DNA from: an uncultured Schlesneria sp.
Lineage (GTDB): Bacteria; Planctomycetota; Planctomycetia; Planctomycetales; Planctomycetaceae
Assembly: GCA_903871875.1 (NCBI GenBank)
Contig: CAIQIR010000054.1
Coordinates: 62,001-126,000 of the forward strand
Length of the DNA: 64,000 nucleotides
Direction of reading: 5' to 3'
The notes beneath the pieces are model-generated. The model saw nothing but the letters and a program-made list of their open reading frames with translations, had not been told where the DNA came from and did not search any database. A program made the translations under genes and the position numbers. Below are positions 21,752 through 62,495 of this stretch, in pieces (position 1 is the first letter of the stretch; each line of letters opens with the position of its first letter).

Positions 21752-21851
21752 GTTCCCCGTAGTTTTCCCCGTTCGTTAATTGACAGCTGAAAAATGCATG
21801 TTTAGAATATGTTCGAACAAAGTTAAATCATATTTCCAACGTGGTGTGAAC

Positions 21852-23051
21852 GTGCGAATTTCGCGTGTGGAAGCTCTGCGGATCCGGCAGCCTGATTTCG
21901 AGCCATTCGACTGGTGGTGCACCAGTTCGTTGGACTTGTTGTATGACGAGGGCAAGAAGAACCGCGATCGCGGCGCTGGTCTATTCAATGTGCCGATCGA
22001 TCTACGTCGCGATCCGGTGTTCCATGTCCTGGTTCGCGTGACGACGGATGATGGATTAACGGGCTTGGGGGCGATCGGGCTGGGGTCGCAAGCCATGGCC
22101 GACGCGGTCGAGCAGTTGCTCGCGCCGCTGGTTTTGGGTCGTAATCCCTTCGATGTCGAGTTGAATTGGGAATTGATGTATCGCTCGACCTTGAACATTG
22201 GTCGGAAGGGCTTGATCCTTGAAGCGATCAGCGGCATCGACATCGCGCTGTGGGACATTCTGGGCAAGGCGACCGGCCAGCCCGTCTATAACCTGCTGGG
22301 TGGTCGCACGCGGGAGCGGATTCGGGCCTACGCCAGTGGTTTGTATGCCGATCAGGATCTTGATCGGCTGGCTAGCAGTGCGCGGCGGTATGTCGACGCC
22401 GGCTTTACGGCGGTCAAGATGCGGTTTGGCTATGGTCCGCAAGACGGGCGGCCGGGGATGCGCAAGAATGTCGAGCTGGTGCGCACGGTCCGTGAGGCGA
22501 TTGGCGATGATATCGATCTGATGGCCGATGCCTACATGGGTTGGACCACGCAGTACGCCATCGAGATGATACGACTGCTGGACGATTTTCATCTGGCCTG
22601 GGTCGAAGAGCCAGTGTCGCCTGACGATCTGGACGGCTACGCTCGCATTCGAGCTTCCACTCGGACGGCAATCGCCGGCGGCGAACACGAGTTCACCCGC
22701 TATGGCTTCAAAGAGTTGATTACGCGCGGCTGTGTCGATTACGTGCAACTGGATGTGAATCGGGTGGGTGGAGTGACGGAAGCGCGAAAGGTCTGGGCAC
22801 TGGCCGCAGCCTATTCCCTGCCGGTCGTGCCGCACTCGCAGAATTATCACAACCAGCATTTGATTATGTCGCATGTAAATTCGCCATTGTCCGAATATCT
22901 GCCGCCCGATTATCGCGATGGCGACACGTTTCTGTCGGAACTGTTTATCGGTGACGCGGTTGCCTGCGACGGGCATATCACTCTGTCTGGCAAGCCTGGA
23001 ATGGGCGTTGAACTGAACGAACCTGTCGTGGCGGAATACTTGCTGAAGTAA
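21852..23051 (+). CDS. Enolase-superfamily sugar-acid dehydratase (rhamnonate-dehydratase-like)
   Basis: A mandelate racemase-subgroup enzyme of 399 residues from GTG 21852. Active-site elements are a KxR motif (K189, R191 in VKMRFG), metal ligands D226, E252 and E278 (MADAYMGW, WVEEP, AGGEHE), and the Asp301/His328 dyad (LDVNRVGG, VVPHS). Overall layout, including YASGLYAD, PQDGRPGMRKN and the ending KPGMGVELNE, resembles L-rhamnonate dehydratase more than mandelate racemase. The expected reaction is dehydration of a sugar acid to a 2-keto-3-deoxy acid; exact stereochemistry is not readable. The start is uncertain (GTG 21846 or 21852; upstream ATG 21780). The lyase gene follows after 11 bases. 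Confidence 0.88.
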   Translation: MRISRVEALRIRQPDFEPFDWWCTSSLDLLYDEGKKNRDRGAGLFNVPIDLRRDPVFHVLVRVTTDDGLTGLGAIGLGSQAMADAVEQLLAPLVLGRNPFDVELNWELMYRSTLNIGRKGLILEAISGIDIALWDILGKATGQPVYNLLGGRTRERIRAYASGLYADQDLDRLASSARRYVDAGFTAVKMRFGYGPQDGRPGMRKNVELVRTVREAIGDDIDLMADAYMGWTTQYAIEMIRLLDDFHLAWVEEPVSPDDLDGYARIRASTRTAIAGGEHEFTRYGFKELITRGCVDYVQLDVNRVGGVTEARKVWALAAAYSLPVVPHSQNYHNQHLIMSHVNSPLSEYLPPDYRDGDTFLSELFIGDAVACDGHITLSGKPGMGVELNEPVVAEYLLK

Positions 23052-23062
23052 GAGGAGTTGGC

Positions 23063-23989
23063 ATGTTGAAGTCCGATTTCGCGGGCATCTATCCGATGCT
23101 GGTGCCGTTCTACCTGGACGACGACCGAGTCGATCCAGACATGCTGCGACGTCAGGTAGAAATTGCGGTTGCGTGCGGCTGTCATGGTCTAGGTGTGATG
23201 GGGCTGGGGACCGAGGTCAATAAGCTGTCGACGGCTGAGCGTCGCGATGTGTTGGCGATCGTGGCGGAATCGCTGGCGGGGCGACTTCCCTTGTCGGTGA
23301 CCATCGGCGAGAACACGGTTCGCGGGCAAATTGAGTTCGGCCGGTTCGCCGCCGAACTGGGCGCGGACTGGCTGATCCTGCAGCCACCCCCAGCCAGTGA
23401 CGTGGCCGAAATCGAGCTCTTGCGATTCTTCGGCGCGGTGGCTGATGCGGTGCCGCTGCCGATTGCCGTGCAGAACGCGGCGGTCTATCTGGGGATTCAA
23501 CTGACGACGTCGGGATTGAACGCATTGCATCGACAGCATCCGAATGTTTGTCTGTTGAAGACGGAAGATCCTCCCGAAACGACCGCACGGTTGATCGAAG
23601 CGACATCGGGCGAGTTTCGAGTTTTCGTCGGTCGTGGCGGTCTGGATTTGGTCGATCAATTGCGAGCAGGTGCGGTGGGCATCATTCCGGGGATGGAAAC
23701 GGTCGATCGGACACCGCGAATCTACGATCATTTTCAAGCGGGACGCGAGTCCGCTGCGGTGGCGCTCTATGACGAGATCCTACCGACGTTGGTGTTCCTG
23801 GAAAGATCGATCAATCATTTCGTCACCTGTTCGCGCGAGATTCTGGCTCAGCGACTGGATGTCGGACCGGTGCGTCATCGATTGGCCCGAGAGATCAGCC
23901 CGTTTGGCCGAGACACCATCGGACGTTGTTCTCGCTCGTTGGGGGCGATGAATGTGGTTACCACCGGCGCGACAAGAGGTGCGCCATGA
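23063..23989 (+). CDS. DapA/NAL-family lyase, variant active site
   Basis: A TIM-barrel class I aldolase-type protein of 308 residues. It shows GIYPMLVPFYLDDDRVD, VMGLGTEVNKLSTAER, then the Schiff-base lysine in VCLLKTEDPP (K166), then VFVGRGGLDLVDQLRAGAVGIIPG. The strand that normally carries the catalytic Tyr (YNxP) reads AVQNAAVYLGI, so Tyr is replaced by Gln, as in a lesser-known branch of the family. Next to a sugar-acid dehydratase, cleavage of a 2-keto-3-deoxy acid is the simple inference. Spacing is 11 bases upstream and a 4-base ATGA overlap downstream, so translational coupling is expected. Confidence 0.87.
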   Translation: MLKSDFAGIYPMLVPFYLDDDRVDPDMLRRQVEIAVACGCHGLGVMGLGTEVNKLSTAERRDVLAIVAESLAGRLPLSVTIGENTVRGQIEFGRFAAELGADWLILQPPPASDVAEIELLRFFGAVADAVPLPIAVQNAAVYLGIQLTTSGLNALHRQHPNVCLLKTEDPPETTARLIEATSGEFRVFVGRGGLDLVDQLRAGAVGIIPGMETVDRTPRIYDHFQAGRESAAVALYDEILPTLVFLERSINHFVTCSREILAQRLDVGPVRHRLAREISPFGRDTIGRCSRSLGAMNVVTTGATRGAP

Positions 23990-24915
23990 TGTTCCTCGTC
24001 CGATTGCGATCGACGCGGCATGCATCGCTGGTCTCGCTCGTGACGAAGTGCAGCCTCTTGTGGCTGTTGTGCACACCGCTCGTCGCCGGCGCGAATGATG
24101 AAGAGGTGCGATTTGTTGCCGACGTGACGTTTGCGTCGCCAACCGACGAGACACTGAAGTTGAATCTGGCTTGGCCTCGGTCGGGAACAGGTCCATTTCC
24201 GACGGTGGTTTGCATTCATGGTGGTGGGTTCTCGGGCGGACGTCGTGAAGACTATGACGGGTTGTGTCGAAAATTTGCCGCGCGAGGTTATGTCGCGGCG
24301 ACGATCGACTATCGATTGTCACCCAAGCATCGTTGGCCGGCGCATATTCACGACTGCAAAGCCGCCATCCGCTGGTTAAGGGCTCATGCCACTGAATATG
24401 GAATTGACGTTGATCGAATCGCCGCCATGGGAAGTTCTGCTGGCGGACATCTGTCTCAGTTCCTGGCGGTGACCAACGACGTCCGGGAATTTGACGGAGA
24501 TCATACTCATCTGGATCAGTCGAGTCGGGTGACGTGCGTCGCGGCGTGGGCTCAAGCAAGTGACTTTACTCGCGAATATGGGGTGTGGAAGGATGCGGCC
24601 GCCGCATTTCGTGGTTTTCTGGGGTCGGATCTGTCGGCGGAAACGCGCCGCTTGCATGTGCGTGCCAGTCCGCTGTTCTGGGTCACGCCGAACGCAGCCC
24701 CGACATTGCTCGTGCACGGAACGGCTGATCGGGATGTGTTGTTTGTCCAGTCAGTCTGGATTTACGAGCGACTGCAGTCGGCAGAAGTGGAAACGCGGTT
24801 GGTGCCCATCGAAGGGGGCGGGCATGGTTTGACCGGTTCGTATTTGGAACAGGCCGAGCAAGCGACATTCGTCTTTTTCGATCAGCAATTGAAGCGGGAG
24901 ACGCTGCTAAAATAA
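23986..24915 (+). CDS. Secreted alpha/beta-hydrolase, BD-FAE/carboxylesterase-like
   Basis: About 309 residues, with a signal peptide (LWLLCTPLVAGA) indicating export. Catalytic elements are the oxyanion motif HGGG (about 78-81), nucleophile Ser151 in GSSAGG, Asp in HGTADRDVLF and His in GGGHGLTG, the pattern of carbohydrate esterases and BD-FAE-type feruloyl esterases. It starts within the stop codon of the lyase gene (ATGA). In this operon it probably deacylates or otherwise releases an acidic sugar before uptake; the substrate is unknown. Confidence 0.87.
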   Translation: MMFLVRLRSTRHASLVSLVTKCSLLWLLCTPLVAGANDEEVRFVADVTFASPTDETLKLNLAWPRSGTGPFPTVVCIHGGGFSGGRREDYDGLCRKFAARGYVAATIDYRLSPKHRWPAHIHDCKAAIRWLRAHATEYGIDVDRIAAMGSSAGGHLSQFLAVTNDVREFDGDHTHLDQSSRVTCVAAWAQASDFTREYGVWKDAAAAFRGFLGSDLSAETRRLHVRASPLFWVTPNAAPTLLVHGTADRDVLFVQSVWIYERLQSAEVETRLVPIEGGGHGLTGSYLEQAEQATFVFFDQQLKRETLLK

Positions 24916-25014
24916 GCCGGTCACGCGAGGCCGGCTCGTGCGGAAAGTGTGCCCAAGAATGAGGTCTTCCCCTCGAATGATTTGAGGAACTCGGGAAACA
25001 GGAAGGTGACAAGC

Positions 25015-25686
25015 ATGAGTGAATTGTTGGCTGCCGACAATTTGACGAAATCGCGGCAGGCGTTTATCGAATTGCGTGAGCGGATTCTGGATGGCCGATT
25101 ACCAGCGGGAACCCATTTGACCTTGCGGCCCATCGCGAAGTCATTGGGCGTGACCGTGGCGGCCGTGTCAGAGGCGGTTCGTGAGCTGGTGCATGAGCAA
25201 TTGGTCGATTTCGAACCCAACTATGGGGCGAAGGTCAAACGGTTCGACGCCGAAACGGTCCGCAGTCAGCATGTGCTGCGAATCGCCATCGAATGTGAAG
25301 CGATCCGCCGTTGCACACAGAATATCGGACCTCGCAAACTGGACGAATTGCAGGCGCTGGCGGAAGAGGTCGATCGTCTGGCCGATGTCGAAGAGAATCT
25401 CTCCGAATCCCGTCGCCGCGATTTTGAGTTTCATTTGCGGGTGGCGGAACAATCGGGCGTCCCTTCATTGGCTGCCGTGTTGCGGTCGTGTCATCTCGTT
25501 CGCCTGTTGGCTGTCGACACCTCGTTGCCGGGCGACCCGCTGACGGTGCCGAATCGCACGCACGTCGAATTGGTCGAGGCGATTCGTTCAAGAGACGTCG
25601 ACACGGCAGAGCAGGCGATGCGAGATCATTGTGAACGGTCATTGCAGTTGCAATTGCGGCAGACGTTCGGAACGATCGGACTGTAA
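25015..25686 (+). CDS. GntR-family transcriptional regulator (FCD/FadR subfamily)
   Basis: A 223-residue regulator. The N-terminal winged helix (RQAFIELRERILDGRLPAG, LRPIAKSLGVTVAAVSEAVRELVHEQLV) is followed by an all-helical FCD ligand-binding domain. Its metal/ligand residues are visible as DFEFHLRVAEQS and HVELVEAIRSRD, plus the final MRDHCERS. ATG 25015 has a purine-rich AGGAAGGTGAC site before it and is preferred to 24949. FCD regulators usually respond to organic or sugar acids, which agrees with the dehydratase and lyase upstream. It probably controls this operon, with the palindrome at 21738 as one candidate site. Confidence 0.88.
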   Translation: MSELLAADNLTKSRQAFIELRERILDGRLPAGTHLTLRPIAKSLGVTVAAVSEAVRELVHEQLVDFEPNYGAKVKRFDAETVRSQHVLRIAIECEAIRRCTQNIGPRKLDELQALAEEVDRLADVEENLSESRRRDFEFHLRVAEQSGVPSLAAVLRSCHLVRLLAVDTSLPGDPLTVPNRTHVELVEAIRSRDVDTAEQAMRDHCERSLQLQLRQTFGTIGL

Positions 25687-25712
25687 ACGTCGTTCCGCTA
25701 CGGAGAGGCTCG

Positions 25713-28121
25713 ATGTCTCGAAAAATGTTATCGATTGGCTTTGGTCTGGCCGGTTTGTTGATGAACCTCGCCACCGGGCAGGACGTGACTGAAAAGCCGC
25801 TGGCACCCAGCGAGGCGGGCGTTCAATACTTCGAGAGCAAAGTCCGGCCGCTACTGATCAAGCATTGTTTCGAATGTCATGGTCCGGATTCCGGTCCAGG
25901 TGAAGCGAACCTGCGAGTCGATTCGCTAGAGAGTCTGTTGCGCGGCGGCAAGTCGGGGCCGGCACTGATTCGGAATGAGCCAGCCAACAGCCTGATGATT
26001 CTGGCTGTGCGGCATGACGGCGCTGTGGCGATGCCGCCGAAAAAGAAATTGACGCCAGCAGAAATCGACGTGCTGGCCTCGTGGGTGAAAATAGGAACGC
26101 CTTGGCCAGGAGCCGCGAATGTCGCCCCGCCCGCCAGTTCTCCGGATATTGCCGTGCCGTGGAGCGACGAAGCGCGACAGTTCTGGGCGTTTCAAACGCC
26201 GCGTTCGCCGCAGAGACCAGCCGTTCGTGATGCGCGATGGCCGCGTTTGCCAATCGACGATTTCATTTTGGCGCGATTGGAAGCCGCCGATCTGCACCCT
26301 GCTCCACCAGCCGACAAGCGAACGCTGCTGCGACGAGTGACGCTCGATCTGTTGGGCCTGCCGCCGACGCCAGCCGAATTGGAAGCGTTCGAGAACGATG
26401 ATTCTGCTGAAGCGTTTGAACGTGTCGTTGTCCGGTTGCTCGATTCGCCCCATTACGGAGAGCGATGGGGTCGGAATTGGCTGGACGTGGTGCGGTATGC
26501 CGACAGCAACGGGATGGATGACAACCTGGCCTATTCCGACGCCTGGCGCTATCGCGACTATGTCATCGCGGCCTTCAATGCCGATAAGCCCTATGATCGG
26601 TTTGTACAAGAGCAACTGGCCGGCGATCTGTTGGCCGAACAAGAACCGGTCCGTCGCGATGAACTGGTGGTGGCGACCGGTTTTCTGGCGATCGGGCCGA
26701 AGATGCTGGCCGAAGACGATCCCGTCAAACAGCAACTAGACATCGTTGATGAGCAGCTGGATACCACCTGCCGCGTGTTTCTCGCTCTGACAATGGGCTG
26801 TGTGCGGTGCCATGATCACAAATTTGATCCGCTGTCAGTCGGCGACTATTACGCCCTGGCCGGCATCTTCAAAAGCACCCGCACGATGGTCTCGTATCGA
26901 GTGGATTCGAAATGGAATTCCACGGCGCTGGGAGGAATCGAACCGGGTCTGCGCTTGAAGGATCTCGAGCAGATGATCGACCGGCATGACAATGCGCTGG
27001 TGAATGGTAACCCGAGCAAGATGTCGGCGGACGAACGGAGCGGGCATGCGCATCTGCTGGAGAAAGCTCTGGCGGATTACGCTGTCGTTCCCAAGGCGAT
27101 GTCGGTGACAGAAGGCGATGTGGGCGATCTGGAAATTCGTTTGCGCGGTAATCATTTGACGCGCGGGGCTGTGGCTCCGCGACGATTTCCGACGATCCTT
27201 GCCGGTACCCATCAACCCGCTCTCAAAAACGACAACAGCGGACGGTTGGATTTGGCTCGCTGGCTGACCCGCGCTGACCATCCCCTGACGCCTCGAGTGA
27301 TCGTCAACCGGGTATGGCGCTGGCATTTTGGACAGGGGCTGGTGAGTTCCGTCGATAACTTTGGTCGCCTGGGGCAAGCCCCATCGCATCCCGAGCTATT
27401 GGACTGGCTCGCCACACGGTTTGTGGCGGACGGCTGGTCGTTCAAAAAACTTCATCAACAGATTTTGCTCTCGCAGACCTGGCAGATGAGTACCGCCTGG
27501 AATGAACAGGCGGCTCAAGTCGATCCGCAGAACCGGCTGCTGTGGCGGATGCCGCGCCATCGGATGGAAGCTGAGGTGCTGCGTGATTCGCTGTTGTTTG
27601 TCAGTGGGCAACTCGATCCGACCATGGGCGGAACGCAATTGTCGACGACCCCTTTCCAGAACTTGTCAATCGGTGGTCTGGCTCGCAAACCGGAGCTTTA
27701 TCAATCGCCCCGGCGCAGCGTTTATCTTCCCGTACTGCGTGGCGCGGTCTCCGAATTTTTCCAGGCGTTTGATTTTCCAGACCCCGCCATCTTGAACGGC
27801 GATCGCGCGACGACGATCGTCGCTTCGCAGGCTCTGTTCATGATGAATAGCTCGCTCGTGCGGCAATCGGCCGAACGACTGGCCGACATGCTGCTGTGTG
27901 ATACCTTCTCTTCGGATCATGAACGCATGCGATATGCGTGCCGACGATTATTCGGCCGACCGGCAGAGCCCGAGGATCTGGCGGCTTGGGAGGAATTCCT
28001 CTCGCAATATCAATCAGCCCCTTCGCTGGCCGGTGAATCACCCGAATCACGACGACGCTGGGGATGGCTGGGACTTTGTCGGGCGCTGTTGTCCTCCAAT
28101 GAATTCATTTATGTCAATTGA
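25713..28121 (+). CDS. Secreted DUF1549/DUF1553 protein with cytochrome c-type motifs (PSCyt1)
   Basis: An 802-residue exported protein, characteristic of planctomycetes. After the signal peptide comes a planctomycete cytochrome domain with CFECH (C52-H56) and a candidate axial Met in AMPPKKKL. A DUF1549 domain (LPIDDFILARLEAADLHPAP, DLLGLPPTPAELE, HYGERWGRNWLDVVRYADSNG) contains a second CxxCH (CVRCH near residue 363). The C-terminal half is DUF1553 (ARWLTRADHPLTPRVIVNRVW, GQGLVSSVDNFGRLGQAPSH). Biochemical function of the family is unestablished; heme attachment is inferred from CxxCH. It follows the GntR gene by 26 bases and precedes the DUF1501 gene by 30. Confidence 0.9.
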   Translation: MSRKMLSIGFGLAGLLMNLATGQDVTEKPLAPSEAGVQYFESKVRPLLIKHCFECHGPDSGPGEANLRVDSLESLLRGGKSGPALIRNEPANSLMILAVRHDGAVAMPPKKKLTPAEIDVLASWVKIGTPWPGAANVAPPASSPDIAVPWSDEARQFWAFQTPRSPQRPAVRDARWPRLPIDDFILARLEAADLHPAPPADKRTLLRRVTLDLLGLPPTPAELEAFENDDSAEAFERVVVRLLDSPHYGERWGRNWLDVVRYADSNGMDDNLAYSDAWRYRDYVIAAFNADKPYDRFVQEQLAGDLLAEQEPVRRDELVVATGFLAIGPKMLAEDDPVKQQLDIVDEQLDTTCRVFLALTMGCVRCHDHKFDPLSVGDYYALAGIFKSTRTMVSYRVDSKWNSTALGGIEPGLRLKDLEQMIDRHDNALVNGNPSKMSADERSGHAHLLEKALADYAVVPKAMSVTEGDVGDLEIRLRGNHLTRGAVAPRRFPTILAGTHQPALKNDNSGRLDLARWLTRADHPLTPRVIVNRVWRWHFGQGLVSSVDNFGRLGQAPSHPELLDWLATRFVADGWSFKKLHQQILLSQTWQMSTAWNEQAAQVDPQNRLLWRMPRHRMEAEVLRDSLLFVSGQLDPTMGGTQLSTTPFQNLSIGGLARKPELYQSPRRSVYLPVLRGAVSEFFQAFDFPDPAILNGDRATTIVASQALFMMNSSLVRQSAERLADMLLCDTFSSDHERMRYACRRLFGRPAEPEDLAAWEEFLSQYQSAPSLAGESPESRRRWGWLGLCRALLSSNEFIYVN

Positions 28122-28151
28122 GCCGGATCGAAAGACGACGGAAACTCCCAC

Positions 28152-29576
28152 ATGACACACCACCGGTTTTCTCTGCCGAATATTCCGCAGTTCTCCCGGC
28201 GACAAATGTTGTCGCAGATGGGAGCCGGATTCGGTGGTCTGGCTCTGTCGGCGCTGCTGGCCGATCAGGCGGTGGCGGCCACGAATCCACTGTCACCCAA
28301 ACAATCCCATTTTCCCGCGCGACTGAAGCGGGTCATCATGTTGTTCATGTTCGGCGGTCCGTCGCATCTGGACATGTTCGATCCCAAGCCGCTGTTGACG
28401 CGCGATAGTGGAAAGCCCCTGCCTGCCGAAAGTCGTCCGCGCGTGGTCTCGTTTCCCAATCGCATGGGCAATCTGGTGGGGTCGCCATTCGAATTCCAAC
28501 AGCATGGCGACAGCGGGCTATGGATCAGTTCGCTGTTTCCACATCTGGCGCGCCGTGCTGACGACTTGTGCCTGATCAATTCGATGTTCTGTTCCAACTC
28601 GCGACATGGCGGGGCGGTGCTGGAATGGCATACGGGAACGGATACTTTCGTTCGGCCGAGCATGGGGGCCTGGGTGACCTATGGTCTTGGCACCGAGAAT
28701 CAGAACTTTCCCGGATATGTCACGATTTGTCAGGATCTGGCACAGGGTGGGGCTAACAATTTTGGTTCGGCTTTTTTGCCCGCGGCGTATCAGGGAACGC
28801 CTCTGGGCTATGCAGGCCTGAAACCCCAAGAGGCCCGGATTCCGTTCATCGGTGATGGCTCCGCTCGGCGTGATCTGCAGCGGTTGGAAGCCGACTTGGT
28901 CGCCCGGATGGATCGCCGACAGGCGGAAACGCGTGGCCCGGATAGCGAACTGGATGCTCGCATTGCCTCATTTGAGTTGGCGTTTCGCTTGCAGACCGAA
29001 GCGCCGGAAATGCAGGATTTGACTCACGAATCAAAGGCGACTCACGAGTTGTACGGACTCGACAATCCAGCGACGGCCGACTTTGGTACGCAGTGTCTGT
29101 TGGCGCGGCGGTTTTCCGAACGGGGAGTCCGATTCGTGCAGTGCAACTTGAGTGGATGGGACGCGCATAACAAACTAAAGGAAGATCACAGTCGTCTGGC
29201 ACAGGCGATCGACAAACCGATTGCCGGTCTGCTGACAGACCTGAAACAACGCGGGTTATGGGACGACACGCTGGTGATCTGGGGCGGCGAATTCGGGCGG
29301 ACACCCACGTGCGAGGGAACAGACGGCCGCGACCACAATCCTCATGGCTACACGATGTGGCTGGCGGGTGGTGGAGTTAAAGCCGGTCTGACCTGGGGAA
29401 AAACAGATGACTATGGGTACTTCGCGGTCGAGGACAAAGTTCATGTCCACGATTTGCATGCGACCGTTCTGCATCTTTTGGGGCTGGATCACAAACGCCT
29501 GACTTATCGTTATGCCGGCCGCGATTTTCGTCTGACCGACGTCCATGGTGAGGTCGTCGAAGGAATTTTGTCCTGA
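28152..29576 (+). CDS. DUF1501 Tat-exported protein
   Basis: A 474-residue member of the planctomycete DUF1501 family. The Tat signal has the twin arginine in FSRRQMLSQMGAGFGG. Family motifs are RVIMLFMFGGPSHLDMFDPKP, NSMFCSNSRHGGAVLEWHTG, FVQCNLSGWDAH and WGGEFGRTPTCEGTDGRDHNP. The fold is related to the alkaline phosphatase/sulfatase superfamily, but the family's reaction is not known. DUF1501 genes almost always sit next to a DUF1549/DUF1553 gene, as here, suggesting the two exported proteins act together. Confidence 0.9.
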   Translation: MTHHRFSLPNIPQFSRRQMLSQMGAGFGGLALSALLADQAVAATNPLSPKQSHFPARLKRVIMLFMFGGPSHLDMFDPKPLLTRDSGKPLPAESRPRVVSFPNRMGNLVGSPFEFQQHGDSGLWISSLFPHLARRADDLCLINSMFCSNSRHGGAVLEWHTGTDTFVRPSMGAWVTYGLGTENQNFPGYVTICQDLAQGGANNFGSAFLPAAYQGTPLGYAGLKPQEARIPFIGDGSARRDLQRLEADLVARMDRRQAETRGPDSELDARIASFELAFRLQTEAPEMQDLTHESKATHELYGLDNPATADFGTQCLLARRFSERGVRFVQCNLSGWDAHNKLKEDHSRLAQAIDKPIAGLLTDLKQRGLWDDTLVIWGGEFGRTPTCEGTDGRDHNPHGYTMWLAGGGVKAGLTWGKTDDYGYFAVEDKVHVHDLHATVLHLLGLDHKRLTYRYAGRDFRLTDVHGEVVEGILS

Positions 29577-29625
29577 GCACACCACGGCTGATCAATCTGT
29601 TCGCACTACCAAAGGACTTCGACCA

Positions 29626-32082
29626 ATGACGGATCAAACGCGCCGCGAATTTCTGGCTGCCGCAGGAGGTGCGTTGGCGGTCAGCCCATTGATGGCGGCG
29701 GAAACGCCAACGGCCAAACTGGCTCGAGCGGAAAAACGCGAACCGGAATCCGCCAGCATCCCTCGCCACCGATCGCTGGCGGTGGAAGGAGTGCATGCTT
29801 ATACCGATCGCCTTCACGTCCCCGCCGGAGAGACGATACGTTTTCACGTCAGCAGTTCCTTTCCGTATGAACTGCAGGTGTGTCGCCTGGGGACCGATGT
29901 CGACGGTCCGTCGAAAGATGAAACGCTGCATTCGTTTGGTTCCTCGCCAGCCGCCATCCAGCCGATTCATCCCGGTTCGTACCTTGTCGCCGATAAACCG
30001 CTCGACGCGACAGCCGACCTGCCGGGGCTGACGCTTGAGGTTTGGATCCGGCGCTGGCGCACCGTGGGACGGCAAGCGATCATCGGGCAGTTTGACGCAC
30101 CCGAGGCCTGTGGGTTTGGCCTGTTCGTCAACGAAGACGGATCACTCAGTTTTTACCTGGGTGACGGCGGGGTGTATCGCGAACAAAACCTGCACACCAC
30201 GCCGCCCGATCAACTGAAAATGCAGATCAACCCCGAGGGGCTGAAGACCTATCCCGACAACACGCCCAGTTCGGTGCTGAACAATCAATGGCACCATGTC
30301 GTTGCCCAATATGATGGCCGCTCGAAGAAAATCTGGGTCGATGGTCAGGAAGTCGGTCGCTGGACATTTAGCGGACCGTGGCGACCGGGCACGGCGCCGC
30401 TGCGGATCGGTGCCGTCGGCAAGCAGGGATTGGCTGATGAGTTGCTCGATGCGGATCTCGCGCTGCCCGCCATTTACGGCAAGGCTCTGACCGCGGACGA
30501 GATCGCTGCCCGCTGGAAGTCGAAGGGGCTGTCGCGTCCGGCGTCAGACGATCTGCTGGCTTGCTGGCCGCTGGATGAGGAGCGTGGCGAGCGAGCGGCC
30601 GATTCCAGTGGGCATGCTCGTCATGCGAAAATCATCAACACTGGAACGTGGATGATCGGTGGCCCGAGTTTTGATGCGGCGGTCCCGCGGTTTGGCACGT
30701 ACGATCCCGCCAAAGATCCACAGCGAGGTCACGGTTTGCGGCTGGCTTCCGACGATTTGTACGATTGCCGCTGGAGTGCGTCACACGAATACCGTCTGCC
30801 AGAAACGTCGCGATCGGGCATCTATGTTGGCCGCATCCGCTTTGCGATCGACGGCGAAGATCGACTTTATCACGTCGTCTTCATCGTGAATAAAGCGGCG
30901 TCTCGGCCGAAAGCGCCAATCGCCTTCATCTGTTCGACCAACAGTTGGAAGGCCTATTCCGCGACGCCGTTCAGTCCGAGTTGGAAGGGACTAAAGAAGT
31001 CGATTGGAAACTACGGCTTCGAAAACAGCCCTGGCAACCCACCCGCTTATTGTTTCTACCGACCGCATCGTGCCGGACAGGGAACCTATCAATTGGGTTT
31101 CCGTATGCCATGGCCGGTGGTGGGACCTTATACGCTGATGGGGCCTGACGAAGCCGATTACAGTCATCTGTGCCGGCAAGATCGGTTCACGCAGGCCTGG
31201 CTGGAATCGAACGGTTTTGCCTATGACGTGTTGACCGACACGGAAGTGCATCTCGATCCGCATGTCCTCGACGGCTACAAAGTGGTGTATGTCGTTGGGC
31301 ACAGCGAGTATTGGTCGTTCGAGGCGATGGGGGCGGTCAGCCATTTTCTGGATCGTGGCGGCAACGCGATTGTCCTGTCGGGAAATACCGCCTTCTGGCG
31401 AGTCTCGTTTAATGCCGATGCGTCGATTATCGAATGCCGCAAGGGTGACGCGCCCGGTTCGGCGATCCGTGCTGAACGCCGGGGTGAGATATGGCATAGT
31501 CATGACGGCCAACGCGGTGGCATGTCGCGCGAGTGCGGATATCCGGCATGGCGACTATTCGGACTCGAGTATTTCTCGCTATTGGGGGTCAGTTGGCCGG
31601 GTGTCGGACCGTATCAGGTTCGCAATCCCGATCACTTCTTGTTCCGTGGTCCCTATGTCCTGGATTTGCGCGAAGGTGATACGTTCGGGGGCACACCAGG
31701 GAAGCCGTTTCCACAACCGATTGGGCATGAGGGCGACGTCCGTGTCTCGACCATGGCCCGGTTTCTGGTTGAGCCGCCACCCGAAGGGGGAGCGCAGCCG
31801 ACCGAGGATCCGGCGGGGATGACGTTGTTGGCCGACGGTTTCGCCGATGCGAAAAAGATCGGGTTCGCCTGGGATTATTTCCAGCGACCGGTTCCACCCG
31901 ACAAGATGCCGCCGATTTCGACCGCGGCTGAAATGATTTATTGGGAGCGGCCAGGCGGAGGACGCGTCTTTCATTCGGGTTCCATCAATTCGGGATCAAC
32001 GCTGGGGGCCGACGAGAAATGGTCAGGGTTGATGCACAACGTGCTGAGCCATTTTGGAGTCAAATCGATGTTCGCCAATTGA
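29626..32082 (+). CDS. Tat-exported LamG + N,N-dimethylformamidase beta-like protein
   Basis: An 818-residue exported protein from ATG 29626. The Tat signal reads TRREFLAAAGGALAVSP. Residues of about 120-330 are a concanavalin/LamG-like domain (LTLEVWIRRWRTVGRQAIIGQ, NNQWHHVVAQYDG, KKIWVDGQEVGRW). The C-terminal half resembles the large subunit of N,N-dimethylformamidase: APIAFICSTNSWKAYSATPFSP, AYCFYRPHR, YKVVYVVGHSEYWSFEAMGAV, GGNAIVLSGNTAFWRVSF, then a glutamine-amidotransferase-like end. DMFases are iron enzymes cleaving amides; the substrate here is unknown, but an amide-substituted sugar would fit the operon. ATG 29545 lies in the previous gene and is not favoured. Confidence 0.83.
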   Translation: MTDQTRREFLAAAGGALAVSPLMAAETPTAKLARAEKREPESASIPRHRSLAVEGVHAYTDRLHVPAGETIRFHVSSSFPYELQVCRLGTDVDGPSKDETLHSFGSSPAAIQPIHPGSYLVADKPLDATADLPGLTLEVWIRRWRTVGRQAIIGQFDAPEACGFGLFVNEDGSLSFYLGDGGVYREQNLHTTPPDQLKMQINPEGLKTYPDNTPSSVLNNQWHHVVAQYDGRSKKIWVDGQEVGRWTFSGPWRPGTAPLRIGAVGKQGLADELLDADLALPAIYGKALTADEIAARWKSKGLSRPASDDLLACWPLDEERGERAADSSGHARHAKIINTGTWMIGGPSFDAAVPRFGTYDPAKDPQRGHGLRLASDDLYDCRWSASHEYRLPETSRSGIYVGRIRFAIDGEDRLYHVVFIVNKAASRPKAPIAFICSTNSWKAYSATPFSPSWKGLKKSIGNYGFENSPGNPPAYCFYRPHRAGQGTYQLGFRMPWPVVGPYTLMGPDEADYSHLCRQDRFTQAWLESNGFAYDVLTDTEVHLDPHVLDGYKVVYVVGHSEYWSFEAMGAVSHFLDRGGNAIVLSGNTAFWRVSFNADASIIECRKGDAPGSAIRAERRGEIWHSHDGQRGGMSRECGYPAWRLFGLEYFSLLGVSWPGVGPYQVRNPDHFLFRGPYVLDLREGDTFGGTPGKPFPQPIGHEGDVRVSTMARFLVEPPPEGGAQPTEDPAGMTLLADGFADAKKIGFAWDYFQRPVPPDKMPPISTAAEMIYWERPGGGRVFHSGSINSGSTLGADEKWSGLMHNVLSHFGVKSMFAN

Positions 32083-32169
32083 AAGGATTTCATTCGCGAG
32101 CTTGCGCCCGCCCGCGTTTGATGTGAGAAGACGGAGCTTGTTTTTCACTTTCACTTGCGGGATGCCATT

Positions 32170-33477
32170 GTGACCGATTGCTCTTCGACTGCTACGGGCG
32201 TGAGAAAAACGGTTCCACTCCTAATGCTGGTGATTGCCTGCGGACACTTCAACCGCGTCAGCATTTCGGTGGTAGGAAGCGAGCGGCTGATTCCGGATGA
32301 GGGAATCAGTCCATCCCAGATGGGGCTCGTCTATTCCGCGTTCCTGCTTTCTTACACTTTGGCCATGTTACCTGCCGGCTGGTTAATCGACCGGTTCGGT
32401 GCCCGCAAAGCGCTGATGGTTTGGGGCTTTGGTTCTGTGATTTTCGTCGGCCTAACGGCCGGCACGAAACTGATCAGTAGCGGAGCGCAATCGCTGTGGT
32501 TCGGATTGCTGGTGGTGCGATCGCTGCTGGGAGTGGTGAATACGCCGCTGCATCCCGCCGCCGCACAAACGGTCTTCGAACGGGTGCCGGCACAGTCACG
32601 AGTCTTTGCCAACGGGCTGGTCACCTTCGCGGCTTGCGTGGGGATGGCGTCCACGTACAGCGTGATGGGATTTCTGATTGATCGATTGAACTGGTCCTGG
32701 GCACTGGTTGTCACTTCGCTTGCGACTTTGATCGTGTCGATCATCTGGACTCGTGGAACGCGTCCGACGGCGGCAAGAGTGGATACCATTTCGGCGCGAC
32801 CGACTGCGACGATGGAGTTCTCACAATTGCTCGCCGTCTTGTCGCAGCGGAACGTGATCTGTCTGACACTCAGTTATTCCGCTCTTGGTTATTTTCAGTA
32901 TCTGTTTTTCTATTGGATCGAATATTACTTCGAGACGGTTCAAAGTCAGGATCGATCGGTGGCGCGTGGGTATGCCACTCTCGTGACGGCTGCGATGGGA
33001 ATCGGCATGGTCTGCGGCGGTTGGCTGGCCGATCGTGTGCCTCGCTCGTTTTCACCGCGAGTGCGGCGGGCGCTGGTGCCCGTGCTGGGCATGGTCTCCA
33101 GTGGCGTGGTCTTTGAATCGGGATTGCTGGCGGCAAATCCACAAATCACGCTGGCCGCATTCGCTGTGGCTGCGGGATTAATCGGGGCTTGCGAAGGTGT
33201 CTTCTGGACCACCGCCGTGGAACTTGGCGGTCGGTTTGGGGCGACCACCGCGAGCCTGATGAATACCGGCTGTAATGCTGGCGGTACCTTGTCGCCCTGC
33301 TTGACGCCATTGTTAAGCACTTACTTCGCCACGCACTACGGTGCTGATTTGGGGTGGCGATTGAGTCTGGCAATCGCCGGAGCGGTCGTGATTGCGGGCG
33401 CCGGATTGTGGTGGGGCATCGGCCCATCAACGGACGAAGCTGTGGAGGGGCTTCCTGCAATCCCGCAGGAGGCTTAA
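32170..33477 (+). CDS. MFS transporter (anion:cation symporter-like)
   Basis: A twelve-helix transporter of about 435 residues. Signatures are LVYSAFLLSYTLAMLPAGWLIDRFGARKALMVWGFG (helix 2-3 loop motif), FYWIEYYFETVQSQDR in the centre and TTASLMNTGCNAGGTLSPCLTPLL near the end. The layout resembles the ACS subgroup that imports hexuronates and other organic acids. It is the last gene of the plus-strand catabolic unit, 87 bases after the LamG/DMFA gene, and is the obvious uptake system for the unit's substrate. The start is ambiguous between TTG 32155 and GTG 32170. Confidence 0.87.
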   Translation: MTDCSSTATGVRKTVPLLMLVIACGHFNRVSISVVGSERLIPDEGISPSQMGLVYSAFLLSYTLAMLPAGWLIDRFGARKALMVWGFGSVIFVGLTAGTKLISSGAQSLWFGLLVVRSLLGVVNTPLHPAAAQTVFERVPAQSRVFANGLVTFAACVGMASTYSVMGFLIDRLNWSWALVVTSLATLIVSIIWTRGTRPTAARVDTISARPTATMEFSQLLAVLSQRNVICLTLSYSALGYFQYLFFYWIEYYFETVQSQDRSVARGYATLVTAAMGIGMVCGGWLADRVPRSFSPRVRRALVPVLGMVSSGVVFESGLLAANPQITLAAFAVAAGLIGACEGVFWTTAVELGGRFGATTASLMNTGCNAGGTLSPCLTPLLSTYFATHYGADLGWRLSLAIAGAVVIAGAGLWWGIGPSTDEAVEGLPAIPQEA

Positions 33478-33550: not shown

Positions 33551-36500
33551 TCAGTCCAAATAAATGAACTCATTCAGATTCAAGGTCATCAGACAAAACT
33601 GATCGAGAGCTTTTTCCGCTGACAGTCCGTGCTTCGACTGCATGGCTTCAATCAATTGCAGTCCGCGAGCGACCAGAGCGGCGTCAGGTTCGTGGCCCAG
33701 GGCCAGCCGGAATCCCAGCGTTACCTGGCGGCGAACGTCATTGCCCGCTTCGCGTCGCAAACGGTCCGCGAACAGGGCTGCCTGTTGATTGAGAAAGCCT
33801 CCATTCAGCATCCCCAGGGCCTGCGTGGGCTGCGTCGTCGTGAACCGGGCGGCACAACTACTGTCGGTATCGGCAAAGTCAAAATCCGCCAGGATGGGCA
33901 GCAATAATGACCGTTTCACTTGGACATAGATACTGCGTCGCGATTGATCCTCGGGCGACGATTTCTCCCACCCCTGCCCTGGAATCGATTGTCCCGCTTT
34001 GACTTCATCGCTGATTTCGGGAAAGACGCCTGGCCCATACATCTTCGGATTCAGTCGACCATCGACGGCCAGGATCGTATCTCGGATCTCTTCCGCGCTC
34101 AGTCGGCGCATGTCATGTCGCCAGAACAAATTGTTCAGCGGGTCGAGTTGATGGGGATCGGGCTGCGTTTTGGAAATGCCCTGTTGCGTCGACGCGGTCT
34201 GTGTCGCGGCGATTGAAGACATTCGATAAGTGCTGGACATGACAATCAGCTTGTGCATCCGCTTCATCGACCAGGGGGCGGTGCCCACGGCTGGCGTCGC
34301 GTTTGTCGCGTCTCGGGGAGAACCGTTCAGTGCGACGGCTTCCGTCCGCTCGGCTGCGCTCGTGGTGGTTGATCCCCGCATGAGTTCGAGGGCCAGCCAG
34401 TCCAGCAATTCGGGATGTGTGGGGCGATCGCCCAGCAGGCCGAAGTTGTTGGGAGAACGCACGATCCCGCGTCCAAAATGATGTTGCCAAAGTCGATTCA
34501 CCATGACTCGGGCCGTCAGTTTGTTATCCGGTGATGCGATCCAGTTCGCGAGCACCAGTCGTCGTCCAGATGTGGTCGCGTTGGGTGCGGGTGCGGGAAT
34601 TGCCGCTGTTCCGCCGCCAAGGGACGAGATGAACGCCGGTACGACAGGATCTCCGAGGGATTGCGGATTGCCCCGTTTGAGTAACATCGTGGCAGGAGGG
34701 TTCGGTCCGACTTCGGTGACGCATAGGGCCTGATCGGCTTGGACTTTGTGCTTTTTCAGTTCGTCCAGTTGTTGGATCAGTTTCGTATATTCGTCATGTC
34801 GTGGTTGCCCGAGAATCGCCGGTCCTTGTGTGGCCATCAGGGCCACGAAGTCTTTGCGTTTTGGGCCACGATCAGGCACTGATTCGGCGTCGGCGGTAGA
34901 GTTCGAAAGAGGCTTTCGTTCAAACCCCGGTCCCGACCATTTCACGTCGAGTCCCTTCGCGCCGCCCGGGCCTTGGAAATAATCGACACGAATGGGGACT
35001 CGCCCCTGCTTCAAGATCAGCTTGCCCAGCCGGGGTTCGCCCATGCCATGAATTCCATCGTGCAGGACGACCTGTTGGCCGTTAATGGTCAACCGCGAAC
35101 CATCATCCGAATCGATGGCGAAAGTGTATTCGCCATCCTTCGGCACTTTGAGCGTGCCGGTGAAGACGAAGCCAAATGAGAATTCACGCGTGGCAGGAGA
35201 CAGATCGAAGAACCCTTTTTCCAACTTGGCGACGGTCTCGGGTTTCAAGCTGTCAAAGTCGGGAAGTTTCTGCCAAGTGTCTCGATAAAAGCGATATTCC
35301 AATTCGTCCATATCGGGCTGGCTGGTGCTTTGTCCCCGGATTCGCAGCCCTTCGCGGAATTCCGTTTCAATCGCCGAAATCGAGGCCTGCACGCTGTTCA
35401 TCTGGTCCTGATGCGATCGGACCGCCACCTCGTACGTTTGCTTCGCAGCAGCATCTTCGAAAATCGGCCGTTCCACATTCGGGTTAGGATTTCCATTCGG
35501 AGTAACCCCTTGAAAAAACGCCAGCAGACTGTAGTAGTCCTTTTGTGGAATCGGATCGATCTTGTGATCGTGGCACCGTGCACAGTTCACCGTCAGGCCG
35601 AGAAAGCCCTGCGCAGTTGTAGTGATGATGTCATCGAACACGTCGTAGACCGCCAGCAATTTGTCGGCCGGTTCATCATCCCAAAGCCCCAGTCGGTAGA
35701 AGCCTGTGGCAATCAGGCCATCGGTGCCGCCGTCCGGCAGTTCGTCGCCGGCCAGTTGTTCGCGAATGAACCGATCGTAGGGCTTATCATTGTTGAATGA
35801 ACGGATCACATAATCCCGATAGCGCCATGCATTGGGTTTGACACCATCGCGTTCAAAGCTGTTGGTGTCGGCATAACGCACGACGTCCAGCCAGTGCCGA
35901 GCCCATTGCTCACCAAAGTGCTTGGATTGCAGCAGCCGATCGACAACCTGTTCGTAGGCATTCGGTGACTGATCGGCCAGAAACGAATCCACCTCGGCGG
36001 TTGTCGGGGGGAGACCCGTCAGATCGAACGTGACGCGCCGTAGGAGTGCCACCTTATCCAGCGGTGGGGCGGGGGCTAGTTCGTTTTGTTCCAGTTTGCT
36101 CAGCACAAAGGCGTCGATCGGGTTCGTGACCCAACTCGCATCCTTCACCGCAGGTGGTTGATAAGACTTGGGGCTTTCAAAGGCCCAATGCTCTTTCCAA
36201 TCGGACCCCTGGTCAATCCACTGTTTGAGCAATTCGATTTGTGCCGGCGATAAGGCCGGACCTTCGGGCGGCATTCGCTCGCTGTCGTCGGTCGAGATGA
36301 CGCGTCGGAACAATTCGCTGTGTGACAGATCCTGGGGTGCAAGCGCCGTTTTCCCCGACTCCAATTTGGCAAACGCCGAATCCTTCTGATTCAGTCGCAA
36401 TCCGCCTTCGGCTTTGTCCGGCCCGTGACAAGCGAAACAGCGTTTGGCAAGAATGGGTTGAATCTGCCGTCCGAAGTCGATCGAACCCGATGATTGAGCG

Positions 36501-36574
36501 AATCCCTGCACCGTTCCGCCAGCCAACAAAATCGCCGCCAGGATCCAGGCACACCGTTCACGAACCGCGATCAT
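33551..36574 (-). CDS. Secreted DUF1549/DUF1553 protein with inserted PA14 domain
   Basis: A 1007-residue exported protein from ATG 36574. A signal peptide (ILAAILLAGGTVQGFA) is followed by a planctomycete cytochrome domain with CFACH (about 46-50), then DUF1549 (NPIDAFVLSKLEQNELAPAP, HFGEQWARHWLDVVRYADTN) with a second CxxCH (CARCH). A PA14 domain of about 110 residues is inserted near residues 450-560 (FVFTGTLKVPKDGEYTFAIDSDDGSRLTI, GGAKGLDVKWSGPG), then DUF1553 (LANWIASPDNKLTARVMVNRLW). PA14 usually binds carbohydrate, so this may anchor the redox protein on a glycan. It converges with the MFS gene and stands without a DUF1501 partner here. Confidence 0.88.
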   Translation of the reverse strand: MIAVRERCAWILAAILLAGGTVQGFAQSSGSIDFGRQIQPILAKRCFACHGPDKAEGGLRLNQKDSAFAKLESGKTALAPQDLSHSELFRRVISTDDSERMPPEGPALSPAQIELLKQWIDQGSDWKEHWAFESPKSYQPPAVKDASWVTNPIDAFVLSKLEQNELAPAPPLDKVALLRRVTFDLTGLPPTTAEVDSFLADQSPNAYEQVVDRLLQSKHFGEQWARHWLDVVRYADTNSFERDGVKPNAWRYRDYVIRSFNNDKPYDRFIREQLAGDELPDGGTDGLIATGFYRLGLWDDEPADKLLAVYDVFDDIITTTAQGFLGLTVNCARCHDHKIDPIPQKDYYSLLAFFQGVTPNGNPNPNVERPIFEDAAAKQTYEVAVRSHQDQMNSVQASISAIETEFREGLRIRGQSTSQPDMDELEYRFYRDTWQKLPDFDSLKPETVAKLEKGFFDLSPATREFSFGFVFTGTLKVPKDGEYTFAIDSDDGSRLTINGQQVVLHDGIHGMGEPRLGKLILKQGRVPIRVDYFQGPGGAKGLDVKWSGPGFERKPLSNSTADAESVPDRGPKRKDFVALMATQGPAILGQPRHDEYTKLIQQLDELKKHKVQADQALCVTEVGPNPPATMLLKRGNPQSLGDPVVPAFISSLGGGTAAIPAPAPNATTSGRRLVLANWIASPDNKLTARVMVNRLWQHHFGRGIVRSPNNFGLLGDRPTHPELLDWLALELMRGSTTTSAAERTEAVALNGSPRDATNATPAVGTAPWSMKRMHKLIVMSSTYRMSSIAATQTASTQQGISKTQPDPHQLDPLNNLFWRHDMRRLSAEEIRDTILAVDGRLNPKMYGPGVFPEISDEVKAGQSIPGQGWEKSSPEDQSRRSIYVQVKRSLLLPILADFDFADTDSSCAARFTTTQPTQALGMLNGGFLNQQAALFADRLRREAGNDVRRQVTLGFRLALGHEPDAALVARGLQLIEAMQSKHGLSAEKALDQFCLMTLNLNEFIYLD

Positions 36575-36820
36575 TGTCACGCCTTTTTCGAATCACTGAA
36601 TTCCGTCCATCACCTTCTGTGGGATGCGATGACGGTTGCCGACGAACGCACCCATGATCTCATCAATTCAGATTGATGCAACAACAGGCTTGGATTTCAT
36701 CATCGTATTCTATGCGACACAGGTCAAAGCCGACACGATCTGTGGATGAAATCAGGCGGAGGACGAATCGGCCGAATGGGGAGTCTGCAAGGCGATGAGA
36801 TGGCATTGGGCGGGGCTGAT

Positions 36821-52579: not shown

Positions 52580-52900
52580 CAAATGAAATGATGAATCTCT
52601 CACTACTCTCTCCTGAATCGCGCCACGCAATTCTCTCGGCTCGGTGAGTTTACTGCAATCACTGGCGACGGAAATCATTTGTCCATTCGGAACCCCACAA
52701 CAGTAACGCCGGCCGTGCAGCCACACCACCGAAGTCGGTTTGCGAGGAGATCCAGGCTGAACCTGGCCATGATTGTTGAGGCGGCCGCGCACTCGTTCGA
52801 TACAACGATCCGGCGGGCGGCAATGAGAACGGCCCGATCAAACGGATGTTTGTTCGGGCCGAATCGATACGAATTCAAGCTTCAGCGGCACGCCACGGGT
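52580..52900. other. Gap between the PQQ-repeat gene and parA-like gene
   Basis: About 320 bases. The frames crossing it are the rejected N-terminal extension of the PQQ gene and short Arg-rich shadows. I see no gene and no strong hairpin. Confidence 0.4.
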
Positions 52901-57090: not shown

Positions 57091-57548
57091 GGCGCCCCCC
57101 TTGCGAGCAGGCCTTCAAATTCACCATCACCCGTCGCTCAATCATTCCTGCCCAAGCCACGGCGTCATTCTTACCGGAAAAGAACCTGCGAATCAAAACT
57201 CCGTCGAAAAGTTCTCGTGGAATTGCCGGAAGTCCATCGAATTGCTCCGACAAATCCACGGTACCGCTGTCTCTGCAAGATGCTCAACGGCGGTGTAGGA
57301 GCCTCGTCGTCTTCCGTTTTTCGCCGTCGTTCCTCGACATCAGTTGCTCATCAGATGTTTGGCCGCTCTGAAGAGCAAGGTGAACAAAATCTCCGAATGC
57401 GCCACTGAACAAACGGTTGGGGCTTGGTTTCCGCTCACCAAATAGCGATCGAGAATTCGCATTGCTACACTCGCTCTCATGTTCACGATGGCGGCCGTGT
57501 TCGGCATTTCCGCCTCGATCATCAACGGTTCCAGGGGAGATTGTCACG
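57091..57548. other. Divergent intergenic region before the sulfatase cluster
   Basis: About 460 bases between the sirtuin gene (minus) and the first sulfatase (plus). An upstream extension of the sulfatase frame starts at 57417, but it lacks a signal peptide and is not favoured. No other gene, RNA or strong hairpin was recognised. Confidence 0.45.
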
Positions 57549-59099: not shown

Positions 59100-59266
59100 T
59101 CACCAGGGAGGACGAACGATTGGGCTGAAACTTGCGCGAATTGGTGAGGTCATGATGGGGCGTGAGTACGAAAGTTTCAGTCTGCCTCTCGGTCTTTTTT
59201 CCCTGGTCAGCTGCTGATTGACGACAAACTCTCCGCGATTCGGTTCATTTCACGAGTGAGCGAACG

Positions 59267-60910: not shown

Positions 60911-61046
60911 TGTCGTCACCGCGCCTGATCAAGTGCGATGCTGGCCCGGCATTGGCAGTAGCACATGACAATCCTGTTTTGCCGCAGCTCTCGTCGAATG
61001 GCTTCAATGTAAACGTTGAAGTCGCTCGCCAAAGAAAGAATCAACG

Positions 61047-62474: not shown

Positions 62475-62495
62475 ATTCATTTACGAGAACCTGTG

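Follow-up and report, generated by a model that had tools for sequence, protein, structure and literature searches.

The window that we analysed, a 64,000-nucleotide stretch of contig CAIQIR010000054.1 from an uncultured Schlesneria sp., contains a block of eight open reading frames (ORFs) between positions 21852 and 33477, which together look like a catabolic cassette for a sugar acid (Table 1). All eight lie on the + strand, and the ORFs together with their Pfam and NCBIfam matches bore out the initial annotation, which had described eight co-directional genes of these families with short gaps and an ATGA overlap between a DapA/NAL-type gene and an esterase gene. The gaps measure, in block order, 11, −4, 33, 26, 30, 49 and 72 bp, and the overlap is present at 23986. 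For the LamG/DMFA gene, the longest in-frame ORF begins at 29545 and the ATG at 29626 is the most likely start; matches to orthologues of the GntR/FCD regulator begin at residue 14–23, so its true start possibly lies downstream of 24949. We assessed export signals by eye. The promoter-like match ahead of the block is weak evidence, with 6 such sites found in 15 kb versus 5.3 in shuffled sequence. A terminator scan, itself weak, found no + strand terminator-like site between genes of the block, and the two such sites inside it (24591 and 31859) fall within ORFs.

Table 1. Genes and candidate regulatory features of the eight-gene block, with positions in the window.
Feature	Position	Strand	Remarks
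Promoter-like TTGACA-17-TAGAAT	21780–21808	+	11/12 consensus match only
Operator-like site	21810–21835	+	perfect palindrome TGTTCGAACA, then TT(C) units at 11-bp steps
Enolase-superfamily (MR subgroup) sugar-acid dehydratase, RhamD-like	21852–23051	+	Pfam MR_MLE N and C; GTG start
DHDPS/NAL-family protein, dehydratase-like active site	23063–23989	+	Pfam DHDPS; Q137, K166-x-E168, without Tyr
BD-FAE-type alpha/beta hydrolase (esterase), putatively exported	23986–24915	+	ATGA overlap with DHDPS gene
GntR/FCD regulator	24949–25686	+	Pfam GntR and FCD
PSCyt1-DUF1549-DUF1553 protein, putatively exported	25713–28121	+	two CxxCH motifs
DUF1501 protein, putatively exported	28152–29576	+	twin-arginine-like N terminus (SRRQML)
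Laminin_G_3 and DMFA2_C protein, putative twin-arginine (Tat)-type export	29626–32082	+	dimethylformamidase-like
MFS importer, organic/sugar-acid anion type	32155–33477	+	TTG start; transport direction inferred

The block recurs in other genomes: four of them (G007, G003, G160 and G213, where it is split over two contigs) carry the full set of eight in identical order and on the same strand, and a fifth (G147) has seven of the eight. The first dehydratase is found at 87–90% identity in these five further genomes, which together with its own make up 6 of the 297 genomes in our class sample and include 3 of the 15 genus genomes (own included); the next-best match in the class sample is 45% identical. 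Among the six genomes this enzyme is 81–90% identical and the cassette proteins as a whole 56–90%, and a DapA profile applied at E 1e-60 to a phylum sample of 392 genomes matched just one, the genome of origin. We then compared the sequence flanking the six blocks, 7–31 kb per side, using all ORFs of at least 100 amino acids and a cutoff of E 1e-10. Only 12 cross-genome matches emerged, all 26–42% identical and paralogue-like; they include PSCyt-type paralogues in G000 and G147, located past the MFS gene, and a 196-amino-acid frame that in G160 likewise lies past the MFS gene and is found again in G213. Because the same block recurs in the same order and strand, its arrangement goes beyond chance, and because the conserved block is bordered by unrelated flanks, positions 21852 and 33477 mark the limits of a natural unit. 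The conserved gene order, the unrelated flanks and the single conserved operator-like site described below thus support the view that the eight genes form one coherent unit, in agreement with the initial annotation, which would have been contradicted by genes scattered in related genomes. That annotation also knew of no such assembly with an assigned substrate, and our searches of open-licence PubMed Central (PMC) papers showed no description of one in the titles and abstract openings listed. A plasmid search with the first dehydratase matched 1625 records, all below 60% identity, and so showed no copy of the cassette enzyme on a plasmid.

Ahead of the block, in all six cassette loci, the palindrome TGTTCGAACA occupies positions −33 to −44 relative to the first start codon (in G003 it is present twice, one copy having one mismatch), and the TTC and TT that follow it at 11-bp steps are kept in five or six of the six, with most neighbouring bases unconserved. 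A conserved palindromic site at the operon promoter, as would mark a catabolic operon autoregulated by a GntR protein, is therefore found at every cassette locus. Within the block of the window the sole further site with at most one mismatch is at 30931, inside the DMFA gene. Searching the six genomes with the operator pattern gave 15 matches outside the cassette, all with one mismatch, of which 14 lie inside chosen ORFs (two of them short, at 95 and 101 amino acids) and one lies between ORFs (locus L242, in G003). The operator pattern produced 2–8 matches per genome versus 0–3 for a reversed control pattern, and we therefore take most of the off-cassette sites, though not all, to be chance occurrences; the search gave no clear off-cassette set that would define a wider regulon. 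These observations fit TGTTCGAACA as a candidate local site for the GntR/FCD protein.

The cassette has probably been exchanged horizontally between planctomycete families, as indicated by its divergence between families, which is far below that of the two markers that we used, RpoB and a TrpE-like protein. The seven cassette proteins common to the six genomes lose on average 3.3–8.3 points of identity from within-genus to between-family comparisons, compared with 24.8 points for RpoB and 34.7 points for the TrpE-like protein. Correspondingly, the branch to the genus in the cassette tree (0.072) is shorter than its tips (0.14–0.23), and in the RpoB tree the same branch (0.33) is far longer than the tips (0.015–0.047). 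With respect to location, the cassette lies away from trpE in G007 and G003, and no cassette occurs within the 6–12 kb examined after trpE in four genus mates (G007, G003, G001 and G005), in which the gene that precedes trpE is kept.

Enzymes of the MR subgroup are recognised by a Lys after strand 2, three acidic metal ligands and an Asp-His dyad. In the first enzyme of the cassette, K189, D226, E252, E278, D301 and H328 align with the corresponding residues of E. coli RhmD, and the same six are invariant in the six orthologues (in which the numbering is one lower). The protein shares 32% identity with E. coli RhmD and 44% with a haloarchaeal protein annotated rhcD. It scored 249.6 bits against the NCBIfam L-rhamnonate dehydratase equivalog, the best of 15 families and below the cutoff of 393, and its closest solved relatives (3stp, 3ssz and 3sqs) carry either the label putative galactonate dehydratase or a family-level annotation. 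The acidic-sugar class of substrate that had been proposed from the sequence at the outset is supported. So is a sugar-acid type for the MFS protein, whose best NCBIfam match is 2A0114 (D-galactonate transporter), at 101 bits with a cutoff of 395.

To place this enzyme in context we surveyed the neighbours of its homologues at the best 80 of 125 loci in GTDB genomes, 72 of which fall in a band of 40–54% identity. Within this band, an AraD1/GguC-type gene lies directly downstream at 42 of the 67 loci with at least 1 kb of downstream sequence, and an MFS gene lies directly upstream at 39 of the 64 with 1.4 kb of upstream sequence. In Chelativorans (L141), GguC (501 bits, above the NCBIfam cutoff of 340) is directly upstream of one of two homologue copies, and in Mesorhizobium (L142) it is ~3 kb away on the opposite strand. 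The AraD1/GguC-type protein has no Pfam match at 1e-8, and proteins of the FAH superfamily are reported to dehydrate D- and L-KDP (PMC6336799). We infer that GguC/AraD1 may dehydrate KDP in the same manner. DapA-like partners occur as well: in Variovorax (L254) the gene downstream of a 46% homologue, separated from it by 13 bp, encodes a match to L-KDP dehydratase (7c0c, E 2e-157), and at L145 the homologue is followed by a DapA-type gene with the Gln/K-x-E signature described below. Glycoside hydrolases of family GH39 occur at 29 of the 80 loci, 23 of which also have GguC, and their presence near the homologues leads us to lean toward pentose-derived acids. We favour a pentonate over a 6-deoxyhexonate as substrate; ascorbate-derived L-lyxonate was considered as well, and no sequence evidence bears on it. 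The survey also revealed a recurrent acidobacterial arrangement (L165, L187, L194 and similar loci) in the order GH39, MFS, RhamD-like dehydratase, AraD1/GguC and an NAD_binding_2 dehydrogenase.

The second enzyme, of the DapA/DHDPS type, had been called a lyase, a designation that its active site does not support. Aldolases of this family carry Lys, Tyr and GXXG, and L-KDP dehydratase is thought to derive from an aldolase ancestor in which the Tyr became Gln143, with Lys171 forming the Schiff base and Glu173 and Glu200 acting as bases, as described in PMC9795676. In the cassette protein, Q137, K166 and E168 align with Q143, K171 and E173 of L-KDP dehydratase and are invariant in all six orthologues, and GXXG reads GLGT (GLAT in one). 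The Schiff-base Lys166 of class I aldolases is thus kept, but their Tyr is replaced by Gln137 and their GXXG is altered, and because of these two changes and the K-x-E motif the protein is not a standard aldolase; it is probably dehydratase-like. Its identity to the Variovorax homologue of L-KDP dehydratase is 26%. Among 29 loci that we scanned there were 28 matches, 27 of them with Gln and K-x-E (five being cassette loci), and the one exception was a Tyr-containing protein of the GTTGE type. DapA-type genes with Gln for Tyr, mostly with a K-P-E motif and GxGG, are also present in many planctomycete genomes (L033–L050, L143, L145 and others), at several loci near MR_MLE and MFS genes.

A different reading of the same enzyme, and the one taken in the initial annotation, is that it splits the 2-keto-3-deoxy acid into pyruvate plus an aldehyde, in the style of E. 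coli rhm or of fungal L-galactonate breakdown. Such an aldolase route would account for the retained Schiff-base Lys and for a cassette without an aldehyde dehydrogenase; the rhm system combines the same parts (dehydratase, transporter, regulator and aldolase), and a profile of the cassette protein matched YagE, a 2-keto-3-deoxygalactonate aldolase, at 83.0 bits and L-KDP dehydratase at 82.0. However, the proton-shuttling Tyr is Gln and GXXG is GLGT or GLAT in the six orthologues, and both are described as aldolase features (PMC9795676), so that we regard this route as unlikely.

Four genes (esterase, PSCyt, DUF1501 and DMFA) encode a putatively exported arm. Alignments place the DMFA protein with dimethylformamidase (6lvb) and with N-acetyl-(R)-beta-phenylalanine acylase (8huy), the latter being its best-scoring solved relative. 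Its residues Y444, Y478, E561 and N587, which correspond to the iron ligands of dimethylformamidase (Tyr399, Tyr440 and Glu521) and to its Asn547, are invariant in all 15 aligned homologues; the number of Tyr399 comes from our own count on the alignment. The alignment breaks before the residue equivalent to Glu657, for which an invariant Glu (in GHExDVR) is a candidate. Variants Y440A, E521A and N547A of dimethylformamidase and the catalytic Glu657 are named in PMC7686228. At E 1e-60, related DMFA genes occur in 19 of the 297 class genomes, seven of them at 70% identity or more (own included), and homologues at 42–53% occur in varied contexts that give no pointer to substrate. The PSCyt protein keeps its two CxxCH motifs, and its gene is one of 65 matches to DUF1549 (PF07583) in its own genome. 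Profiles of the PSCyt and DUF1501 proteins retrieved nothing significant from the PDB (best E 0.76 for PSCyt, and 0.037 for DUF1501, to a sulfatase), and AlphaFold models built from three sequences each had mean pLDDT values of 35.6 and 34.9, respectively. A paper on freshwater Verrucomicrobia (PMC5615132), whose main text does not mention DUF1501, states that no function is known for PSCyt-encoding genes or for the genes conserved next to them.

Conservation of the iron site, together with an acylase as the top solved relative, raises the alternative that the DMFA protein is an amidase that defines the substrate as an N-acyl or amide compound, in which case the first two enzymes would act on a non-sugar hydroxy acid or an amino-sugar acid and the DapA-type protein would be a deaminase or hydrolase. 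The first dehydratase is nonetheless closest to sugar-acid dehydratases, and its homologues stand beside GH39 (at the 29 loci noted above) and sugar transporters, which makes this alternative quite improbable. The PSCyt, DUF1501 and DMFA genes could also be a second, exported module that merely sits beside a sugar-acid operon made up of the dehydratase, DapA, GntR and MFS genes. One genome (G210) does have PSCyt, DUF1501 and DMFA genes (70–84% identical) without the other five, and the varied contexts of the more distant DMFA relatives are compatible with such independence; but the G210 contig is short (11 kb) and may miss the remaining genes, the eight genes are together in five genomes (own counted), and in complete blocks the trio sits between the GntR and MFS genes. 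We therefore consider two unrelated modules very unlikely. The trio in G210 does suggest that PSCyt, DUF1501 and DMFA may act together.

Outside the conserved block, at 33551–36580 on the − strand, lies another gene for a PSCyt1/DUF1549/DUF1553 protein; its product contains a PA14 insert, and the gene converges on the MFS gene. Four loci (L128, L129, L130 and L131) encode proteins of ~1500 amino acids with DMFA similarity, of which that at L128 combines DUF7133, HEAT, LamG and DMFA2_C and lies near genes resembling the sulfatases and the esterase of the window. The window itself has four consecutive + strand sulfatase genes (PF00884) at 57417–63989, all with SGSH_C matches, and a 1562-amino-acid protein at 48107–52792 (− strand) whose sole match is PQQ_2 (beta-propeller).

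Taken together, these results lead us to propose, with somewhat more confidence than doubt, that the block represents a catabolic cassette that is self-contained, is exchanged horizontally and is governed by a single GntR/FCD regulator, and that its cytoplasmic enzymes constitute a two-dehydratase (Route II/Weimberg-like) branch of aldonate breakdown. In this proposal, a sugar-acid conjugate would be opened outside the cytoplasm, with the BD-FAE-type hydrolase cutting an ester, the iron-type DMFA protein cutting an amide, and the PSCyt/DUF1501 pair carrying out a step that is unassigned and possibly redox. Once freed, the aldonate would enter via the MFS protein and be converted by the RhamD-like dehydratase to a 2-keto-3-deoxy acid, from which the DapA-type protein, forming a Schiff base on Lys166, with Gln137 and Glu168 standing in for the Tyr of aldolases, would remove a second water. 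The product would be a semialdehyde of the alpha-ketoglutaric semialdehyde (KGSA) type, to be oxidised by a chromosomal aldehyde dehydrogenase, and the GntR/FCD regulator, acting at the single promoter of the block, would be released from TGTTCGAACA by the substrate or an intermediate. A bolder version holds that the PSCyt/DUF1501 pair works with the DMFA protein as an exported machine, which by oxidation and hydrolysis together would free the aldonate from a conjugate linked by an amide or ester bond, with the Tyr-less DapA subfamily defining a new branch of Route II and the whole being exchanged between planctomycete families as one cassette; this version we consider rather unlikely.

Several observations weigh against the two-dehydratase cassette. 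No aldehyde (semialdehyde) dehydrogenase is among the eight genes; relatives of KGSA dehydrogenase are found in all six cassette genomes, an unspecific result given their presence in 11 of 14 controls, and in none of the six does any protein pass the KGSA dehydrogenase cutoff of 770 bits. Oxidation of the expected semialdehyde must come from elsewhere in the genome, so that the unit is incomplete and the initial proposal of a complete catabolic unit is not supported. In the second enzyme, Glu200 of L-KDP dehydratase aligns with G192 (Ala in the G003 orthologue), and because of this replacement dehydratase activity is not secured and we do not file the protein as an L-KDP dehydratase; moreover, its Gln/K-x-E signature is common to a large planctomycete subfamily without assigned function. 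Among homologues of the first enzyme, 25 of the 67 loci in the 40–54% band have no GguC directly downstream, nor do any of the six in the 55–70% band. A phosphonopyruvate-hydrolase-like gene stands upstream of the homologue at L139, the 44% haloarchaeal homologue has neighbours annotated as a rhamnose cluster (Route III type), and no DHDPS gene is listed within 7 kb on either side of the Caballeronia homologue. The G147 locus, to which that search was confined, has no match to the esterase, and the exported arm as a whole counts on this side, its role in external release being putative, as is that of the MFS protein in uptake. Finally, the unrooted cassette and RpoB topologies of the six genomes agree, with no tree conflict, so that transfer is argued from branch lengths, from location and from the patchy presence of the cassette. 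The initial observation is thus borne out more strongly than it was first put, and the interpretation with which we began is partly supported: right in kind, and wrong or overstated as to the lyase and completeness.

The cassette locks a PSCyt-type gene into a small set that has a regulator, an operator-like site and an importer of its own, along with a proposed pathway whose first two enzymes are open to assay. The substrate should therefore be findable by screening GntR ligands and dehydratase substrates, and if the exported machine were real, it would provide a first substrate and role for a family as numerous as this one is in its own genome. The DapA-type result in turn draws attention to a large Tyr-less planctomycete subfamily that is easily misread as aldolases.

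Among known systems, the E. coli rhm cluster (rhmD, yfaU, yfaV and yfaX) likewise combines an enolase-superfamily dehydratase, a second-step enzyme, a putative transporter and a regulator, but it has no exported enzymes and its dehydratase is the distant relative noted above (32%). Its aldolase is of the HpaI type and its regulator of the IclR type, unlike the Tyr-less DapA type and GntR/FCD of the cassette. The Route II pentonate pathway follows the same proposed reaction order, and its Azospirillum L-KDP dehydratase (7c0c/3fkk) shares Gln-for-Tyr and Lys-x-Glu with our second enzyme, whereas the cassette has Gly or Ala for Glu200 and no KGSA dehydrogenase; the first dehydratase of Route II is of the IlvD/EDD type rather than the enolase type. 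A RhamD-like dehydratase followed by a DHDPS-type dehydratase reportedly constitutes the L-lyxonate pathway of P. aeruginosa. The acidobacterial clusters that we found here likewise join an MFS gene to a homologous dehydratase and a probable 2-keto-3-deoxy acid dehydratase, but their second enzyme is of the AraD1/GguC type and, in the three loci scanned, GH39 replaces the PSCyt/DUF1501/DMFA trio. On the exported side, the dimethylformamidase large subunit (6lvb) and the acylase (8huy) share with the cassette DMFA protein the DMFA2_C region, the iron ligands and the Asn547 equivalent, and the cassette protein differs from both in its putative Tat-type export, its Pfam LamG domain and the lack of a small-subunit gene among the eight.

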